In this document: piece after piece, positions 4,019-20,283 of the stretch
Layout: each line of letters begins with the position of its first letter
Numbering within the stretch: the stretch's first letter is position 1
From: a virus
Direction: 5' to 3' (one strand)
Length of the DNA: 34,425 bases
IMG/VR virus record: IMGVR_UViG_3300046004_002364
Span: 1-34,425 of that record
The notes under the pieces: generated by a model
Databases searched by the model: none
What the model was told of the DNA's origin: nothing
What the model saw: only the letters and a program-made list of their open reading frames with translations
Made by a program: the position numbers and the translations under genes

Positions 4019-4774
4019 GTGGAATATAACAACCAGGCACGTTTAACAAAAAGAGAAAAAAGAGTCGCTAGACAAAATGGTGACACGCAAGAAGGACTGA
4101 CATTTAAGACTCAAAATTTTAATTTAAAAACTGTCAATCCACTCACAGAAAATCAACGTATTGCGTTTGACGCTTTTGATGACGGAAAACACCTGATGTT
4201 ACACGGTATGGCTGGTACCGGCAAAACCTTCATCGCTCTTTCAAAAACTATTGATGCACTCATGTCAAATAAAGGTGTACAAAATAAGATTTACATTGTA
4301 AGATCGGTAGTACCGACACGAGATATGGGATTTCTTCCTGGCAATCAGAAAGAAAAGATGAAAGTTTATGAGGCACCTTATTACGCCATCTGTACCGAAC
4401 TGTTTGATCGGTCTGATGCGTATGAGATCCTCAAGCAGAAGAATGCGATCGAGTTTATTTCGACGTCATTTATTCGTGGCATTACCATGAATAATTGTTA
4501 CGTGATTGTAGATGAAGTGAATAACATGACTTTCCATGAACTGGATTCTGTGATCACTCGTATTGGTAAAGGTTGTAGAGTATTATTCTGTGGCGACTTT
4601 CGTCAATCAGATCTTACGAAAGAACAAGAACGTAACGGACTGAAGGATTTTATGAAAATCGTCGGTAAGTTAAATGACTTTGTACATGTTGATTTTCTCG
4701 AACAAGATATTGTTCGTTCGAAACTAGTGAAGGAATATATAATTGCTCGACAAAAACTCGGTCTCCAACCGTAA
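4019..4774 (+). CDS. phoH: PhoH-like P-loop ATPase
   Basis: 251 aa with a GTG start behind an AAGGA ribosome site. Walker A is G63-M-A-G-T-G-K-T70, Walker B is VIVDEVNNM (161-169), and GDFRQSDL (191-198) is the sensor segment of superfamily-1-like PhoH proteins. PhoH-like ATPases are very common in T4-like marine and soil phages. The cellular PhoH family is linked to phosphate starvation and RNA metabolism, but the phage role is unresolved. The basic N-terminus (TKREKRVARQ) could contact nucleic acid. The gene overlaps the following exonuclease by 32 bases, so the two are probably translated together. Confidence 0.88.
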   Translation: MEYNNQARLTKREKRVARQNGDTQEGLTFKTQNFNLKTVNPLTENQRIAFDAFDDGKHLMLHGMAGTGKTFIALSKTIDALMSNKGVQNKIYIVRSVVPTRDMGFLPGNQKEKMKVYEAPYYAICTELFDRSDAYEILKQKNAIEFISTSFIRGITMNNCYVIVDEVNNMTFHELDSVITRIGKGCRVLFCGDFRQSDLTKEQERNGLKDFMKIVGKLNDFVHVDFLEQDIVRSKLVKEYIIARQKLGLQP

Positions 4775-5467: not shown

Positions 5468-5501
5468 AAACATGTACAAATTATGAAAACTTTGGTAGTA
5501 T
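5468..5501 (+). promoter_or_regulatory. Phage sigma70-type promoter, copy 2
   Basis: AAACATGTACAA (5468-5479), -35 TGTACA (5473-5478), 17-base spacer, -10 TAGTAT (5496-5501). It aligns base for base in spacing with copy 1 and shares the AATTAT-AAAACT spacer start and TGAATAAT after the -10. It lies between a terminator and a small gene. Confidence 0.8.
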
Positions 5502-5718: not shown

Positions 5719-5778
5719 AAAATAAACATGTACAATATTTCGAAAACAATGTAAGGTGGACCTATAATGAAGAAGGAA
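5719..5778 (+). repeat. 60-bp perfect direct repeat, copy A (promoter plus leader)
   Basis: Sixty bases identical to 6451-6510, from AAAATAAACATG to GAAGAAGGAA. The block covers the -35, spacer, -10 and the translation-initiation leader of two unrelated small genes. Confidence 0.95.
5724..5757 (+). promoter_or_regulatory. Phage sigma70-type promoter, copy 3
   Basis: AAACATGTACAA (5724-5735), TGTACA (5729-5734), 17-base spacer, weak -10 TAAGGT (5752-5757). A TATAAT at 5763-5768 is too far downstream for the same -35. The initiation region is identical to copy 4. Confidence 0.6.
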
Positions 5779-6457: not shown

Positions 6458-6510
6458 ACATGTACAATATTTCGAAAACAATGTAAGGTGGACCTATAAT
6501 GAAGAAGGAA
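6451..6510 (+). repeat. 60-bp perfect direct repeat, copy B (promoter plus leader)
   Basis: Identical over 60 bases to 5719-5778. Downstream sequence diverges within a few bases (GCAAAC versus ACGAAA), as do the two genes, so only the expression cassette was duplicated or kept identical. Confidence 0.95.
6456..6489 (+). promoter_or_regulatory. Phage sigma70-type promoter, copy 4
   Basis: AAACATGTACAA at 6456-6467, TGTACA (6461-6466), 17-base spacer, TAAGGT (6484-6489). Same sequence as copy 3. Drives the small membrane-protein gene that follows. Confidence 0.6.
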
Positions 6511-6663: not shown

Positions 6664-6697
6664 AAACATGTACAAATATGCCATTCTATGGTAGAAT
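6664..6697 (+). promoter_or_regulatory. Phage sigma70-type promoter, copy 5
   Basis: AAACATGTACAA (6664-6675), TGTACA (6669-6674), 17-base spacer, TAGAAT (6692-6697) preceded by GG as in copy 2. It precedes the DUF932-like gene. Confidence 0.8.
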
Positions 6698-8252: not shown

Positions 8253-8690
8253 ATGAAGAATTTTATTGCGCTAGCACTCATCATGCTGGCAACTCCAGCT
8301 ATCGCACAGAAGACTCCTGTCGGTGTGACATATGATACGAAGATTATCCGCGCCATTGATGGTGATACGATTGTCATTGCTGCGCCGTACTTGCCAGCTC
8401 CTTTGAAGCCTGAGCTTGGTGTTCGTATCTTTGGTGTCGATACACCTGAAAAAAGCTTTCGTGCAAAGTGTGAGAGCGAAAAAGTGCGCGGAGAACAGGC
8501 TTCTGTCTTTGTCAAAGATTTGATTTCTGCTACAAAGAAGCATCAGGTTGTTCTGTATGATTGGGACAAGTTCGGTGGTCGTGTCCTCGGAGACATGCTA
8601 TTTGATGGCATGAGCCTTCGCGAACTGCTTATCAAGAACGGTTTTGCGCGTGCATATTTTGGTGATGCAAAACAGTCTTGGTGCAATTAA
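8253..8690 (+). CDS. Secreted thermonuclease (SNase) family nuclease
   Basis: 145 aa. Signal peptide MKNFIALALIMLATPAIAQ, then a staphylococcal-nuclease OB fold. Catalytic and metal-binding positions of the family are present: IDGDT (D36, D38), VRIFGVDTPE (R58, D63, T64, E66) and DKFGGRVLGD (R110). The final LLIKNGFARAYFG matches the family's last helix. It should be an exported Ca2+-dependent DNA/RNA endonuclease, acting in the periplasm or outside. Phage uses could include degrading competing DNA or scavenging nucleotides; this is inference. Its stop lies within the promoter of the tmRNA gene. Confidence 0.88.
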   Translation: MKNFIALALIMLATPAIAQKTPVGVTYDTKIIRAIDGDTIVIAAPYLPAPLKPELGVRIFGVDTPEKSFRAKCESEKVRGEQASVFVKDLISATKKHQVVLYDWDKFGGRVLGDMLFDGMSLRELLIKNGFARAYFGDAKQSWCN

Positions 8691-8722
8691 GCATGTACAA
8701 TTAAAGCCCGTTAGGGTATAAA
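8689..8722 (+). promoter_or_regulatory. Promoter of the tmRNA gene: sigma70-type copy 6 overlapping a late box
   Basis: AAGCATGTACAA (8689-8700), TGTACA (8694-8699), exact 17-base spacer, TATAAA (8717-8722). The -10 continues as TATAAATA (8717-8724), the T4 late promoter consensus, so both host and late-modified polymerase might start near 8729. Confidence 0.8.
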
Positions 8723-8733
8723 TAGAATATCAG

Positions 8734-8750
8734 TTGTTGACAATCAACAA
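8734..8750 (+). other. Hairpin near the 5' end of the tmRNA acceptor piece
   Basis: TTGTTGA (8734-8740), loop CAA, TCAACAA (8744-8750): a perfect 7-bp stem. It could be a 5' processing or capping hairpin of the acceptor piece. An alternative pairing of ATCAGT (8729-8734) with ACTGAT (8885-8890) would join the two pieces. Confidence 0.5.
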
Positions 8751-8793
8751 TAAAGGCGGAAAGACCGGGGTTCGACTCCCCGCACCTCCACCA

Positions 8794-8838
8794 TAGACAC
8801 ACTGAGAAGTATGGTTGTGATGACAGTGTGTCTATGAT
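8794..8838 (+). other. tmRNA intervening segment with 11-bp perfect hairpin
   Basis: TAGACACACTG (8794-8804) pairs perfectly with CAGTGTGTCTA (8824-8834). It begins directly after the encoded CCA and almost continues the acceptor stem. It should be removed by RNase P at the 5' end of the coding piece and by 3' processing after CCA. Confidence 0.85.
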
Positions 8839-8919
8839 GGGGGTGACCTTGGAATTCGATTTTCGTGTAATAGGGCGGTTCGAGACTGATTGCTTGGCAA
8901 AGTGCCACAAAACATAAAT

Positions 8920-8964
8920 GCTAACGATAACGATAGCTTTGCAGATATCCGCCTAGCGGCATGA
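8920..8964 (+). CDS. tmRNA proteolysis-tag reading frame (ANDNDSFADIRLAA)
   Basis: Fourteen codons from resume codon GCT (8920-8922) to TGA (8962-8964), read on tmRNA without an initiator codon. The peptide begins ANDN and ends LAA, the two conserved ends of alphaproteobacterial tags; the terminal LAA is what ClpXP/ClpAP recognise. The middle (DSFADIR) is unusual and the tag is slightly longer than the usual rhizobial ones I recall. PK1-like TGGCA/TGCCA ends 12 bases before the resume codon, the usual distance. Confidence 0.88.
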   Translation, partial: ANDNDSFADIRLAA

Positions 8965-8977
8965 TCTACACGGGTTT

Positions 8978-9020
8978 CCTAGTTTCCCTTGGAACAGAAA
9001 AACTAGGGTTTGCATTTTTT
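8978..9020 (+). terminator. 3' hairpin and T run of the tmRNA gene, shared with convergent HNH gene
   Basis: CCTAGTTT (8978-8985) pairs with AAACTAGG (9000-9007). A 7-base gap precedes TTTTTT (9015-9020), so it is either an imperfect terminator or the last helix of the tmRNA coding piece followed by a terminator-like T run. The stop codon of the minus-strand HNH gene lies inside the stem. Confidence 0.55.
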
Positions 9021-9443
9021 ATGATGTTGTGTTAAAGCGTTTACTGGTAATTCTCTTTTGCATAAAGCACAAGATGCTCTGTTTTGTTTTTTACCTTGCA
9101 TAGGATTTTTACCAAGTCGACTCTGTTCTTTTCTTTTCTCAATGAGATACTCTCTCATTCCGGGTTTTGACCAGAGTGCTTTTCCACCAATAGATGGCAG
9201 ATTACGATTCATTCTTTGAACGTAACGACCACCTTCGGCTTGTTTTAAATATGCTAGTTCTTGTGAATCTATTGAATTAGTTAAACCGAGCCACGCAATT
9301 CGGTCATATTCATTTCCGAATTGTTCATATAATATTTTGTGGGCTTCGGCATGTTCTTCTATAGTAAGTTCTACTATATTACTTGGATCATCTGATCCAC
9401 CCATGTGTTTTGGGAAAATATGGTGCTTATGATAAATAGTCAT
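9003..9443 (-). CDS. HNH homing-type endonuclease
   Basis: 146 aa from the ATG at 9443, chosen because AGGAG (9451-9455) precedes it; an 18-residue extension to 9497 would start upstream of the expected transcript. The N-terminus IYHKHHIFPKHMGGSDDPSNIVEL...HAEAH is the HNH block of phage homing endonucleases (H7/H8, N22, H31/H35). The stretch SKPGMREYLIEKRKEQSRLGKNPMQGKK resembles a NUMOD-type DNA-binding repeat. C125-xx-C128...H140-xxx-C144 suggests a terminal zinc knuckle. It is a free-standing mobile gene on the strand opposite its neighbours, convergent with the tmRNA gene, and has its own late promoter at 9499. Confidence 0.87.
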   Translation of the reverse strand: MTIYHKHHIFPKHMGGSDDPSNIVELTIEEHAEAHKILYEQFGNEYDRIAWLGLTNSIDSQELAYLKQAEGGRYVQRMNRNLPSIGGKALWSKPGMREYLIEKRKEQSRLGKNPMQGKKQNRASCALCKRELPVNALTQHHKKCKP

Positions 9444-9466
9444 GCTGGTTCTCCTAACAGAATTAG

Positions 9467-9496
9467 TGGTAGTGGGACGGCCATCCGCGACTACCA
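9467..9496 (-). promoter_or_regulatory. Hairpin at the start of the HNH message
   Basis: TGGTAGT (9467-9473) and ACTACCA (9490-9496) form a perfect 7-bp stem with a 16-base loop. On the minus strand it sits at the expected transcript start, upstream of the AGGAG site. It may affect stability or translation. Confidence 0.45.
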
Positions 9497-9498
9497 TC

Positions 9499-9506
9499 TA
9501 TTTATA
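9499..9506 (-). promoter_or_regulatory. T4-type late promoter TATAAATA for the HNH gene
   Basis: TATTTATA on the plus strand reads TATAAATA on the minus strand. The predicted start is near 9493, with a 50-base leader to the HNH ATG. Confidence 0.6.
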
Positions 9507-9580
9507 AAAAACAGAACGGGCCACTTTACTACCAGTTGAATTGCTGGTGCTACGAGTCGCCAGAAAACCGCTGGGGATAG

Positions 9581-10672: not shown

Positions 10673-11244
10673 CTCCATTCGAGAGCTACACTACCTTTCT
10701 TGCCCTTAAAAATCACTTCACAACAGATAGCTACGACTACATCAAATACAACGGCAGGATCGGAGCCAAGCCTTCGAGCTTTGATGTACGTAAGGACAAG
10801 TATCAATTCTATAAGTTGTCAAAACACAAAGATCCTCTCAAATATCTGGTCGCCAACTTTATTGATGGCGATTTAAAATGGATCGGCGATCTGTTTGATG
10901 ATGACTCAGAGAAAGTGTACAATGAATGGTTAAAGAGACAGCAATCTCTTTCTTATATTTTTGAAGAAGATGTAAAAAAACTATGTACAAATTTCAATGA
11001 TTGTGTTATTATAAAGAATGGGCAACATCCCTTTCTACTCAAAAAATATCTTCGTCGCGAGATTTCTATCGAGACGGTGATTATCCTCAATGATATCTTC
11101 GGGTTCTTCGGTCATTGGAACAAGAAGATTGAGGATGGTGTCCTATGGCCCAGCATCCACAAGAAGCTGCTGAAGTATAAGCCGTTCTTTCATTATGATG
11201 CATTTCGGTGCAGAAAAATTGTCAAGGACGTCTTTACTTCATGA
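10669..11244 (+). CDS. 59: Helicase loader, T4 gp59-like
   Basis: 191 aa (T4 gp59 is 217). It opens MTPFESYTTFLALKNHFTTDSYDYIKYNGRI..., and the segments FYKLSKHKDPLKYLVANFIDGDLKWIGDLF and HPFLLKKYLRREISIETVIILNDIFGFFGHWNKK are diagnostic of gp59. It loads the replicative helicase (gp41-type) onto gp32-covered forked DNA and recombination intermediates. It is basic overall, fitting DNA binding. The gene is coupled by ATGA to gp33 and contains, in its last third, a promoter-like sequence likely to feed gene 32. Confidence 0.9.
   Translation: MTPFESYTTFLALKNHFTTDSYDYIKYNGRIGAKPSSFDVRKDKYQFYKLSKHKDPLKYLVANFIDGDLKWIGDLFDDDSEKVYNEWLKRQQSLSYIFEEDVKKLCTNFNDCVIIKNGQHPFLLKKYLRREISIETVIILNDIFGFFGHWNKKIEDGVLWPSIHKKLLKYKPFFHYDAFRCRKIVKDVFTS
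10984..11012 (+). promoter_or_regulatory. Putative internal promoter in gene 59 for gene 32
   Basis: TGTACA (10984-10989), exactly 17 bases, TATTAT (11007-11012), with ACTATGTACAAATTT resembling the intergenic family. It lies about 310 bases upstream of gene 32, whose product is needed in large amounts. Confidence 0.45.
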
Positions 11245-12259: not shown

Positions 12260-14302
12260 TTACCTAAGCGTTGCTCCGCGAGATGTTTGAGTGTATATGA
12301 TCTTTGGAAATCCCATACGAGTCAAGTAGAATTCGACTCCGGCTTTATCAGAAGACGTAGGCATGTTCTGAATCGTAGAAGAACCGCTTGGCGCATTCAT
12401 GTTAACTGGATCTGATTTTGTTACAGCAACCGGTTTAGGAGTCTTCGTTGCAGCAACTGTAGCTGTTCTTTCTTTTGCGGCTCTTGCAATATTTCCTGAC
12501 ATCGTATCATTTACCGTTGAAAGCTGAGATCCACTTGTAGGTGTCATCTCACCTAATCCGGCACGTAGAATATTTCCAATGGCTTCGATTGCGCCTTTGC
12601 CTATATTTGCTCCAACCGTCGTAACTTGCTCGAGTATGCTCGAGCCACCTCCTCCTTCAATAGTTGATCCAGTACCAGGACCCACTACAGTTACGTGAAT
12701 ATGTCCGCCTGTTGCACCCGCAGATGCATCTTTATATTCGTCTAATATCTTCACTTTATATCCATTAGCATCTGCAGCTGCTTTTACTCTATCAGCAACA
12801 GCTGTTGATTGTGATGGATCTTTAATAGTAAAGTCGAAGGCAAGTCCTTCATTGTGTTTAGACGTGCGACCTTTATGATAACTATCGCTAAATGCTGTGA
12901 ATCTTGTCAGCTCTGGTATTTGTGCTTGGACTATCTTTGCGAATTCAATGGTTTTTGAAGCTGCTTGTCCGCCGCTGATTGCTTCTTGCGATTTAAGTCT
13001 CAATCCATCGTAATTCGAACCATCTGGAGTAGCATTTGGTGTTGCAGCAGAAGCGGGCGTTGCGTTTGGTGTTGCAGGTGCAGCAGAAGCGGGCGTTGCG
13101 TTTGGTGTTGGAGTCGGTGCAGAAACTTTTGATGGAGCAGCATTCGAAGAGGAAACCATGGGAGTCGGAGTAGCATTCGATCGAGTTGAACTTGGTGTTG
13201 CAGCTCTTGATCCTGAATTATTAGGCGCAGCAGAAGATGCATTAACACGCGAAGAACTGCTACTTGAAGACGGAGCCATAGTCGGCTGAGTAGAACCAGA
13301 ATTAGGTGCAATCGCTGGAGTTGTTGGAGCAACCGAAGAAGGAGTTATTGCACTCGGAACTGCTTCATTTGCTTCGCTTGGAACACTTAATTTTGTCTGA
13401 GGCGCTGTCTTAGGAGAAGATTGCGTATTACCTTGAGTAATATTTGGTGTTGCGGTTGAAGTTTCAACTTTTGAATCTGAAGCAGAAGAACCTCCAGTAA
13501 AAAAATCTAATCCGTCAGAAACAACACCAGCAACATCTTTTACAAAATTAAATACACTTTTAATGCCACTGGCGAGTGACTTAAATGCTTCTTGTACTGG
13601 TTCAAACTGTGCAGCTATTAATCCGCCCACGAGTAATGCTACGCCTATTCCAGTAGTATCAGATTTTTCGGCATCGGGTTTAGAATTTTGCTCGACAGGA
13701 GATGCATCTCCAGATTTCGCCTCGATGGCAGCTTCTTTAGTTGCTACTAAATTTCTGTTAGCTATTTTTTTTTGATTGTCTAAGCGTTGCTTCAGATAAC
13801 CATCAATCGTAGCCAGCTTCTCTATCATCTGAACGATAGGAGAATTGATTTTTATACTTGGCGCAGGGAGTTTTCCGCTTCCAGTACGAGTTTTTACTCT
13901 TTGCTTCGCAGCTTCTCCGGTTGCTCCCATATTATTTACGACAGAATTGGCAGCTTTACTCTTATCATATGATCGTTCTTCTGGAGTTACACCTTGTGTG
14001 ATGCCTTGATAGGCAGCTTCAATTAGTTTACTGAAAGTAGGGTTCGCCGCATTTTTTGTTTTTCGATCAATCCATACACCACTGTTAAGATCCCACACGT
14101 ATTCTGTTTTACCGAGTTTTACAATTGGTCGAGAAGTATCGATACGAACACGCTTCTTCTTTCCTTCAGAAGAATTTTCAACTTGAAGTTTATTTAAAAG
14201 TGAAAGCAATCCTTCTGGTGCTCTTATTTTTGATTTTTGATCTACCCAGCCGTCGCTTGTTTTAATGAAGGTTTGACCACCAATTGTAACTGGTTCAGCC
14301 AT
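12260..14302 (-). CDS. Tail protein with LAS/M15-type peptidase domain
   Basis: 680 aa. Order: N-terminal beta repeats that open alike (GGQTFIKTSDGWVDQKS and LGKTEYVWDLNSGVWIDRKT), a module at about 118-205 shared with the next gene upstream, a hydrophobic segment (GIGVALLVGGLIAAQF), a long Ser/Thr/Ala/Pro linker with tandem repeats, then a domain at about 430-540 holding SKHNEGLAFDF and GGHIHV. The H-x6-D...HxH set is that of zinc LAS/M15 D-Ala-D-Ala-type peptidases. A C-terminal module (LRAGLGEM...NDTMSGN) is also shared with the neighbour. It probably cuts peptide cross-links during tail penetration. Start coupled by TAATG. The enzymatic reading is from motifs only. Confidence 0.7.
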   Translation of the reverse strand: MAEPVTIGGQTFIKTSDGWVDQKSKIRAPEGLLSLLNKLQVENSSEGKKKRVRIDTSRPIVKLGKTEYVWDLNSGVWIDRKTKNAANPTFSKLIEAAYQGITQGVTPEERSYDKSKAANSVVNNMGATGEAAKQRVKTRTGSGKLPAPSIKINSPIVQMIEKLATIDGYLKQRLDNQKKIANRNLVATKEAAIEAKSGDASPVEQNSKPDAEKSDTTGIGVALLVGGLIAAQFEPVQEAFKSLASGIKSVFNFVKDVAGVVSDGLDFFTGGSSASDSKVETSTATPNITQGNTQSSPKTAPQTKLSVPSEANEAVPSAITPSSVAPTTPAIAPNSGSTQPTMAPSSSSSSSRVNASSAAPNNSGSRAATPSSTRSNATPTPMVSSSNAAPSKVSAPTPTPNATPASAAPATPNATPASAATPNATPDGSNYDGLRLKSQEAISGGQAASKTIEFAKIVQAQIPELTRFTAFSDSYHKGRTSKHNEGLAFDFTIKDPSQSTAVADRVKAAADANGYKVKILDEYKDASAGATGGHIHVTVVGPGTGSTIEGGGGSSILEQVTTVGANIGKGAIEAIGNILRAGLGEMTPTSGSQLSTVNDTMSGNIARAAKERTATVAATKTPKPVAVTKSDPVNMNAPSGSSTIQNMPTSSDKAGVEFYLTRMGFPKIIYTQTSRGATLR
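13044..13110 (-). repeat. 31-bp direct repeats in the Ala/Pro linker
   Basis: A 31-base unit occurs perfectly at 13044-13074 and 13080-13110, period 36. It encodes repeats of the ATPNATPASAA type in the linker of the tail peptidase. Prone to unequal recombination. Confidence 0.9.
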
Positions 14303-16602
14303 TATGCAGCCAATCTATGATATTGGAGATAAGCTTCAACTGAACCGTTTCCTGGAAAATTAGGATCAAGACATTCCAACTTGCCATCGTTCGAAGCATT
14401 AGCTTGGCGAATAGAAGATGCGCCTGCAGATTCTTTTTGAGTTGCAGCCTGAGCGGCGTCTGCATTTCCTAAATCAACTGCGTTTTGTATCTGTGCTGAA
14501 GTACGGGCTAATTGCGCAGTTGTTGTAGATTCTCCTTGAACTGGCGTAGCCGAGCTTGTATTGCCTCGCATAGTATCATTAAATCCGGACAATTGAGATC
14601 CAGTTGTAGGTTTCATCTCACCTAATCCAGCGCGTAGTACTGTACCGATAGCTTCCATTGCGCCTTTACCTAAACCAATAGCGCTTGATAGCAGGCCACT
14701 ATTTCCAAGCTCGGCAGAAGAAATTTTAGGACCAGAGCCTGCAGCATAAAAGCCTTCGACTTTTGCTAAAGCTTGCATGAATCTTACTTTTTCGTCGTGA
14801 GTAAAATCTGTATATTTTTTATTTGGATCAACTCTTGCGGTTCCAATAACTTTTGCTGGATGATCAGGATCAGTTGCCCAATTTTCTAACGTCTGTCCAA
14901 TAGGTCCGTTTGAATATTCGCTTTTAAGCAACGCGTCCATCGCAGCGAAGCCCGCTACGCGTGTAGGAAAGACTGCGACTGGTGGACCGTTTGTCGACGG
15001 TGATGAGCCTACGGAACCATAAGATCTTGCAAGTGATCCGTCCATAATATTACCAGGATTATTTGTGCGGGCTGGAAGAGTTCCTCCGCGTCTCTCTGTG
15101 GTACCATCTGCATACGTAACAGTTGTATATCCAGCGCCACCTTCAACAACACCCGTAATAGGTTTGTTTTGGCCAGCTGTTGCACTTGTCGTAGAAGTTA
15201 CTGGTGCAGCTGCTAAAGAATCTGTAGAAGCTGGAGAACTCGGTGTTGCCATCGCGTCAGATTTTGGTTTTAAACCAGCAGCGGGTTGAGCATCTTTTAG
15301 AGCATCTTCTTCTTCTGTCCAATCCCAATACGCAGATATAATATCATATATTAAAAATGCGCTCGAGGCGACAGTAATAAGAGTAAGTAGAGCTCCCGGT
15401 ATGACGCCAATTCCTGTTGCAGCAATCCCAATACCTACTAAAGCTCTTGCAAGTAAAGGCATAATCTTTTTTGCAAAGAATGTTTTACCAAAGCGCTTTT
15501 GCAAAAATGCTACCCATCTTTGACCCTTTGGTCCTGATAACCAGCCACCTCCACTTGTTACAGCAGCTCGCTTTGCCGCTCTTCCAGTGACAGGATCTCT
15601 GAAACCAGAACCTTTAAGAGAAGGAGCTACCTGTGGCGCCGCCCGAATTTTTGCAATATTAGCACGAGCATCTTTAATTTTTCCAAAGGTTTTTACACCT
15701 CGATATGCACCATAACCGGCCAAGCCACCTGCCATGGCATAATCATATGGTCCTGGTTTTTGAGGCGCTGACGCCTGAGTGCCATTCGCTTCTTCTCCAG
15801 TTCCAGTTATATTTTCAAATATACTCTTTCCAGTAAATCTTTTAACAAGATACTCTGCTACTAGCCCTGCAATTCCTCCACGAAGTCCTTTTAATAGGTA
15901 TCCAACAATTGAACCTGTGCTTGATACTCCTTCGGCGAGCGGACCAAGAAAATCAAATTTTTCGTTAAAGGCTTTATAACTATCTTTGAGTCGATCGAGT
16001 TCTTTCGTATCTAAATTACCTAAGGCTAAAAGACCGAGTCCTGCAATTCCTGCCGCGGCTAAGATAGTTTTTGTGAGTGTAATAGCTCTGCTTTTTACGG
16101 TGCTATCATCCGACTTACCGCTAAATTTTTCAGATAACTTAGTAAAGATGCTTTCTTTTTGGCCGCCGCTTTCAATAGAGCTTTCTCGTTCAGCTTGGGC
16201 TTGTTGAACGAATGCATCTCTTTCAAACTTAATTTGAGCCTGAAGAGTTTTGTCAATTGACGAAAGATAATTGACTGCAACAACTAAAAGCTTTTCAGTA
16301 GGCATATTCACATTGACAGCGGGAGCCGATGTTTTCTTCAGAGCAGGAAGTGTTCCTCCTCCAGTCACTTTGCCTTTCGCGGCCGATCCAGCGATACCAA
16401 AATTATTTACTATCGTTTTAGGCGCAGGAGTTAATGCTCCACCAACCGCTGCGCCGATGCCTTGACCGATACCACCGACAGCAGAACCCGCACCTTGTGC
16501 TAGACCGCCAACAGCAGCACCTGCACCAGAAAGAGCTCCGCCTAGCACGTTTCCTATCATGCCGCCGCCTAGAAAAAGCGCTCTGCCCAAAGCTGCTACC
16601 AT
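14302..16602 (-). CDS. Large tail protein with lysozyme-like (NNPGNI) domain; tape-measure/hub candidate
   Basis: 766 aa. The N-terminus is a long Gly/Ala zipper (about 10-60). The shared module (about 63-146) with the downstream gene follows, then hydrophobic helices (TILAAAGIAGLGLLAL; ALVGIGIAATGIGVIPGALLTLITVASSAFLIY). The domain at about 510-617 has TNNPGNIMDG, VFPTRVAGFAAMDALL and VRFMQALAKVEGF, the signature of phage-tail lysozyme-like glycosidases. The C-terminal module has LRAGLGEMKPTTGSQLS. It is likely a virion protein that degrades the glycan strand and spans the membrane on injection. It stands right after a gp26-family gene with a frameshift extension, the usual place of a tape measure; that role is inference. 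TAATG overlaps at both ends. Confidence 0.72.
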   Translation of the reverse strand: MVAALGRALFLGGGMIGNVLGGALSGAGAAVGGLAQGAGSAVGGIGQGIGAAVGGALTPAPKTIVNNFGIAGSAAKGKVTGGGTLPALKKTSAPAVNVNMPTEKLLVVAVNYLSSIDKTLQAQIKFERDAFVQQAQAERESSIESGGQKESIFTKLSEKFSGKSDDSTVKSRAITLTKTILAAAGIAGLGLLALGNLDTKELDRLKDSYKAFNEKFDFLGPLAEGVSSTGSIVGYLLKGLRGGIAGLVAEYLVKRFTGKSIFENITGTGEEANGTQASAPQKPGPYDYAMAGGLAGYGAYRGVKTFGKIKDARANIAKIRAAPQVAPSLKGSGFRDPVTGRAAKRAAVTSGGGWLSGPKGQRWVAFLQKRFGKTFFAKKIMPLLARALVGIGIAATGIGVIPGALLTLITVASSAFLIYDIISAYWDWTEEEDALKDAQPAAGLKPKSDAMATPSSPASTDSLAAAPVTSTTSATAGQNKPITGVVEGGAGYTTVTYADGTTERRGGTLPARTNNPGNIMDGSLARSYGSVGSSPSTNGPPVAVFPTRVAGFAAMDALLKSEYSNGPIGQTLENWATDPDHPAKVIGTARVDPNKKYTDFTHDEKVRFMQALAKVEGFYAAGSGPKISSAELGNSGLLSSAIGLGKGAMEAIGTVLRAGLGEMKPTTGSQLSGFNDTMRGNTSSATPVQGESTTTAQLARTSAQIQNAVDLGNADAAQAATQKESAGASSIRQANASNDGKLECLDPNFPGNGSVEAYLQYHRLAA

Positions 16603-20271: not shown

Positions 20272-20283
20272 TATTTATAAATA
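20272..20283. promoter_or_regulatory. Palindromic bidirectional late promoter TATTTATAAATA
   Basis: The 12-base sequence is its own reverse complement and holds one TATAAATA on each strand (plus 20276-20283; minus 20272-20279). It lies alone between gene 4 (minus) and gene 48 (plus) and should drive both tail cassettes. Confidence 0.8.

Follow-up and report, generated by a model that had tools for sequence, protein, structure and literature searches.

A circularly permuted two-piece tmRNA gene in a T4-like phage and the cassette-like exchange of its intervening segment among related phages

The stretch of DNA analysed here, hereafter the window, is the complete 34,425-base IMG/VR record and comes from a T4-like myophage, of whose genome it is a linear fragment. 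PHROG matches within it include gp32, the helicase loader, a DNA end protector, head closure and baseplate genes, and, judged by the baseplate wedge protein, the nearest cultured relatives are Caulobacter phage Cr30 (39% identity), Sinorhizobium phages of the phiM12 group, Melnitz and HTVC008M. The tmRNA gene described below is flanked by phoH and an exonuclease gene on one side and by the helicase loader and gp32 on the other, a neighbourhood that matches the gene order PhoH, PDDEXK nuclease, SsrA, coactivator and gp59 in Melnitz. When GTDB species genomes were scanned twice with exact patterns for host candidates, no match was returned. Further along the window, two large proteins on the minus strand (12260-14302 and 14302-16602) have no PHROG or Pfam match, and the region encoding them (12260-16602) is far more diverged in locus L107 than in L018. 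The features of the tmRNA locus are listed in Table 1.

Table 1. Features of the tmRNA locus in the window and, in the last row, of an open reading frame in related loci. IS, intervening segment.
Feature	Position	Strand	Basis
Upstream neighbour, staphylococcal-nuclease-like protein	8253..8690	+	Pfam SNase 8e-10; PHROG 452 endonuclease
Putative sigma70-type early promoter	8694..8722	+	-35 TGTACA 8694-8699, 17-bp spacer, -10 TATAAA 8717-8722
Acceptor piece (3' half of the tRNA-like domain)	8731..8793	+	Rfam RF04321, ARAGORN, alignment of relatives
IS, presumably excised	8794..8838	+	closing-stem pairing in relatives; 28 IS families
Coding piece (end probable)	8839..9008	+	Rfam, ARAGORN, relatives
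Tag reading frame, ANDNDSFADIRLAA plus TGA	8920..8964	+	ARAGORN; tag recurs in relatives
3'-terminal hairpin, CCTAGTTT / loop CCCTTGGAACAGAA / AAACTAGG	8978..9007	+	compensatory replacement across lineages, AACAGAA loop conserved
510-bp insertion carrying the HNH gene	9000..9509		BLAST alignments of relatives jump from 8999 to 9510
HNH homing endonuclease gene, likely start ATG 9443	9003..9443	-	PHROG 655 homing endonuclease 4.9e-16; weak Pfam HNH
Left-over ancestral tmRNA 3' end, AACAGAACGGGCCA	9510..9523	+	closes the tmRNA in 44 relatives
Further TGTACA-N17-TAnnnT sites	771-799, 4276-4304, 5473-5501, 5729-5757, 6461-6489, 6669-6697, 10984-11012	+	
Cys-rich ORF in related loci (L117, L035, L213, L224-L226, others)	IS of the tmRNA		

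The region 8731-9010 is a circularly permuted two-piece tmRNA gene of the alphaproteobacterial type. The Rfam model RF04321 (tmRNA_permuted) matches positions 8732-8964 over its full length (1-213) with 95.1 bits, well above the cut-off of 47 (E 1.9e-17), and ARAGORN independently reports one permuted tmRNA (tmRNA*, 8698-9055) carrying the tag ANDNDSFADIRLAA, which bears out the phage-encoded, permuted gene and the complete tag frame proposed in a first-pass annotation of the sequence. The same annotation had expected a high score with the alpha_tmRNA model; the match of RF01849 to 8690-9009 does exceed the cut-off, but only marginally (50.4 bits against 50), and close relatives score between 41.0 and 61.4. 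A 290-nt stretch covering the gene folds better than all of 200 shuffled sequences (z -3.73). The acceptor half precedes the coding half, and the acceptor stem is continuous between 8839-8845 and 8783-8789 (GGGGGTG/CACCTCC) and includes G3:U70. In order, the acceptor piece comprises a 5' hairpin, the strand 8757-8762 of the helix joining the two pieces, the T-arm with the T-loop TTCGACT, the 3' strand of the acceptor stem, A73 and an encoded CCA (8791-8793), whereas the coding piece comprises the acceptor 5' strand, the partner strand 8860-8865 of the joining helix, the PK1 region, the tag frame and the 3' hairpin. Acceptor stem, CCA end, T-loop and the P2-like joining helix all lie where they had been placed at first sight, and the end of the tmRNA, put at 9020, was roughly right, as the coding piece probably stops near 9008.

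The dedicated promoter upstream, also noted at first pass, belongs to a family within the window: the motif TGTACA-N17-TAnnnT occurs at seven further sites, against 0.26 expected. Several copies of this motif fall in intergenic repeats. Relatives carry TTGACA-N17-TATATA or TTGACA-N17-TATACA at the same position. The longer word TATAAATA at 8717-8724, which spans the -10 box, is also the word of T4 late promoters.

Pattern scans recovered 110 related loci besides the window (111 in total); as IMG/VR loci from different samples may derive from one phage species, locus counts are not counts of independent events, and distinct sequences were used where independence mattered. All 111 loci retain the acceptor stem, 109 of them with CACCTCC/GGGGGTG and two with the paired change CGCCTCC/GGGGGCG. 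The tag of the window recurs in 50 of the 111 loci, and other alleles retain the LAA end through synonymous changes (CTA or TTA, and GCT, GCC or GCG) followed by TAA or TGA. In the 3' hairpin the AACAGAA loop is constant while the stem is wholly different between lineages, examples being TGGCTC/GGGCCA, GGTGGGA/TCCCACC, TGATAGTTTT/AAAACTATC and GGCGGTTT/AAACCGCC.

In the window, a 510-bp insertion sits in the AACAGAA loop of the ancestral hairpin and divides it. The end of the HNH gene carried by the insertion overlaps the 3' arm of the tmRNA on the opposite strand; among the fetched loci, this gene was seen only in the window and in L131. Relatives without the insertion have the stem TGGCTC/GGGCCA, whereas in the window both stem arms differ from theirs and yet pair perfectly, the 5' arm (8978-8985) with the insertion-borne bases 9000-9007, which leaves the 3' hairpin whole. 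This is explained most simply if the endonuclease came in by recombination together with a matching tmRNA end of its own, the insertion being accompanied by a new matching stem. The endonuclease may cut tmRNA genes. The first-pass annotation had included neither the HNH gene beginning inside the tmRNA 3' end nor the closing stem of the IS.

The IS of the window is a 45-base hairpin between the CCA end and the coding piece, with the closing stem TAGACACACTG/CAGTGTGTCTA and the bases TGAT directly before the acceptor 5' strand. In related loci the IS falls into 28 families of 5 to 134 bases. Across 30 distinct IS sequences, 262 of the 270 cells of the 9-bp closing stem are paired (97%), compared to 61% when the ends were shuffled among segments. 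Among loci that share the commonest tag and have different IS, the median identity is 98.6% for the acceptor piece and 96.8% for the coding piece against 52% for the IS, a value near the 47% obtained with shuffled sequences. Conversely, the same IS (98-100% identity) is found inside tmRNA genes with different tags, the coding pieces of which are 78-85% alike (L130/L020, L230/L124, L174/L147, L165/L051, L227/L164 and L210/L163), while L020 and L035 agree at 99% in the coding piece and at 100% in the 3' end around unrelated IS. When two IS modules were searched across IMG/VR, seven out of seven further contigs carried them, except for a few bases, in the IS slot of diverged tmRNA genes. Taken together, these alignments indicate that the IS is exchanged as a cassette through its conserved flanks.

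Some of the exchanged segments have content of their own. One IS family (17 loci) begins with AGAGGAAATTATG immediately after the CCA and encodes a Cys-rich peptide, MVICSCRDIRDSQYTN-(L/R)-E-(D/E)-LR...DDFCCGTC..., whose reading frame continues into the coding piece. The pN/pS of this ORF is about 0.1, with mostly 0.07-0.21 for diverged pairs of its six alleles, which indicates that a small Cys-rich ORF nested between the tmRNA halves is under purifying selection. In IMG/VR the peptide occurred only within tmRNA genes at the stringency used, and no profile library names it; a ferredoxin (Bfd-like) identity, suggested by the Cys pattern, found no support. L128 has part of the coding piece a second time, located after the tmRNA gene and beyond an ORF-containing stretch. 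The IS of Melnitz holds a candidate ORF as well (54 aa), with a Shine-Dalgarno-like GGAG. In L118 and L162, the IS forms a weakly tRNA-like cloverleaf resembling tRNA-Ile(aat); with scores below the ARAGORN default threshold, these elements are tRNA-like at most, and a full tRNA was rejected. Permissive Rfam scans of the IS found no known RNA families.

Structure, tag conservation, promoter motif, closing stem and 3' hairpin are each supported by comparisons of sequences, and we consider it very probable that the locus encodes a working phage two-piece tmRNA, transcribed early, processed, charged with alanine and acting with host SmpB in ribosome rescue. For expression, processing, charging and rescue we infer the following course. 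Host RNA polymerase would transcribe the gene early, as a single precursor, from which RNase P and the tRNA 3'-end enzymes would remove the IS. This would leave an acceptor piece with its CCA end at 8793 and, from 8839 onwards, a coding piece; the two would reassemble via base pairing. The tmRNA, in which the identity elements are present, would then be charged with alanine and bound by SmpB; as SmpB (PF01668) was not found in 14 phage records (ten large relatives and four tmRNA-bearing isolates), the protein would have to come from the host. During infection, the tmRNA may thus rescue ribosomes stalled on broken mRNA and add a normal LAA-ending proteolysis tag. The earlier idea that tagging is redirected finds no support, since the LAA end of the tag is that of ordinary proteolysis tags.

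Early transcription by the host polymerase is the better reading of the promoter because the -35 box of relatives lies exactly 17 bp upstream and TGTACA is common to the promoter family of the window. Yet TATAAATA would fit a late promoter too: the match to the T4-type word is exact, and the word occurs 7 times in the window where 1.8 copies are expected, among other places before structural genes at 20276 and 26499. A tmRNA expressed as a late gene from 8717-8724 nevertheless seems unlikely to us, considering that relatives carry TATATATA or TATACATA instead, that TTGACA or TGTACA is always located 17 bp upstream in those inspected, and that the tmRNA of Melnitz has also been assigned an early promoter (PMC9004378). 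Early and late use of the same site are both possible. A different role is conceivable if the tRNA-like part acted as a decoy that titrates host SmpB and alanyl-tRNA synthetase and thereby shuts down host trans-translation, a role that others have proposed for a tag-less tmRNA, that of mycobacteriophage DS6A; a phage form reduced to the TLD does occur, and expression of a similar molecule inhibits tmRNA (PMC4131195, PMC11915505). We regard this as highly improbable here, since a decoy would need neither the tag frame nor the LAA end nor the 3' hairpin of the coding piece, all of which have been maintained in different lineages through synonymous and compensatory changes. Finally, the locus might be a captured or decaying fragment of a host ssrA gene without function, left for example by imprecise excision. 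Phage integration at ssrA is frequent, and the authors of the Melnitz study suggested prophage gene exchange as the source of the tmRNA (PMC9004378), but such a fragment is barely credible for a complete gene that many T4-like phages retain at the same syntenic position, and the strong covariation in closing stem, acceptor stem and 3' hairpin already disfavours it. Moreover, an exact 20-base search with the coding piece gave no match in GTDB species genomes; the gene was therefore not copied recently from a host.

Within a functional tmRNA gene, processing would require nothing of the IS beyond its closing stem. The segment would therefore be free to be replaced, and may have been turned by recombination in the conserved flanks into an exchange site for unrelated RNA or coding cargo. 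How much of this variety is of use to the phage can be read in two ways. There is about an even chance that the segments are neutral spacers whose stem holds the ends together for processing and whose variety stems from drift and recombination. The closing stem is the only feature common to nearly all IS, and at least seven loci have an IS of 5 nt, which means that long cargo is dispensable; the cassette exchange could then be a by-product of ordinary phage recombination, with the IS being mostly neutral filler kept by its stem. The low pN/pS of the Cys-rich ORF, the recurrence of both searched modules in the IS of diverged tmRNA genes, and the paired changes in an internal hairpin by which L137 and L176 differ all argue against pure filler. 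They leave room for the more tentative proposal that the IS is a dedicated cargo site, at which flank recombination swaps modules, such as structured or tRNA-like RNAs and the gene for the Cys-rich protein, that would be made early. If this proposal holds, one transcript would yield both the rescue RNA and an exchangeable effector that is cut out with the tmRNA precursor.

Two-piece tmRNAs of phages are known yet uncharacterised, and the more than 100 natural alleles collected here, in which the tmRNA stays constant while the excised segment is replaced, make the choice between spacer and cargo directly testable. The group also includes tmRNA genes that harbour a conserved protein gene, and a tmRNA 3' hairpin that has received a homing-endonuclease insertion together with a changed, fully pairing stem. 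The exchange of the IS like a cassette among related phages, together with the small protein encoded in some of them, looks new.

The gene itself is a member of a known group and not the first permuted phage tmRNA. The statement at first pass that none had been characterised in a T4-like phage is contradicted by the two-piece tmRNA of the T4-like Methylophilales phage Melnitz, published in 2022. The same study lists 53 two-piece tmRNAs in phage genomes, of which 50 are of marine or aquatic origin, and reports that 17 of 47 related contigs carry a permuted tmRNA (PMC9004378). In our scans, RF04321 scored above its cut-off in Melnitz, in the Pelagibacter phages HTVC008M and Mosig and in Ruegeria phage RpAliso, and not in Cr30 or phiM12. 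The permuted tmRNA of RpAliso (L205, OR257569.1; tag ANENFAPVEMAVAA) is missing from the annotation of that record and is followed by two sub-threshold Y-RNA-like (YrlA) matches. In Melnitz (L206), a glutamine riboswitch (1886-1934) sits after the tmRNA (1461-1878); the control of the tmRNA that has been ascribed to this element was rejected on account of that position, and it more likely regulates something downstream.

The one-piece tmRNAs of mycobacteriophages such as Bxz1 and Wildcat are not permuted and belong to an unrelated lineage. What they have in common with the window gene is that they are encoded by phages (PMC4131195). The bacterial alpha_tmRNA (RF01849) of Alphaproteobacteria such as Caulobacter and Sinorhizobium shares the order acceptor, IS and coding piece, the tag frame and the 3' AACAGAA hairpin, and in S. 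meliloti two stable mature pieces are known (PMC2873474); in contrast, the window gene barely passes the cut-off of that model, is phage-borne and belongs to alleles that exchange their IS. Free-standing HNH genes next to conserved RNA genes are likewise familiar from homing endonucleases beside phage tRNA or intron sites, whereas here the insertion point lies inside the tmRNA 3' hairpin and comes with a new pairing stem. The tmRNAs of Melnitz, HTVC008M and Mosig are permuted, of the alpha type and end in a hairpin with the AACAGAA loop; in Melnitz the gene is also located near phoH, a nuclease gene and gp59 (the helicase loader), and its promoter, TTGACA-N17-TATAAA, resembles that of the window. 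They differ from the window gene in their tags (ANDNYVPVDYALAA, ANFNEYALAA and GEDNFALAA), in having no HNH insertion and in the IS, which in Melnitz measures 142 nt.
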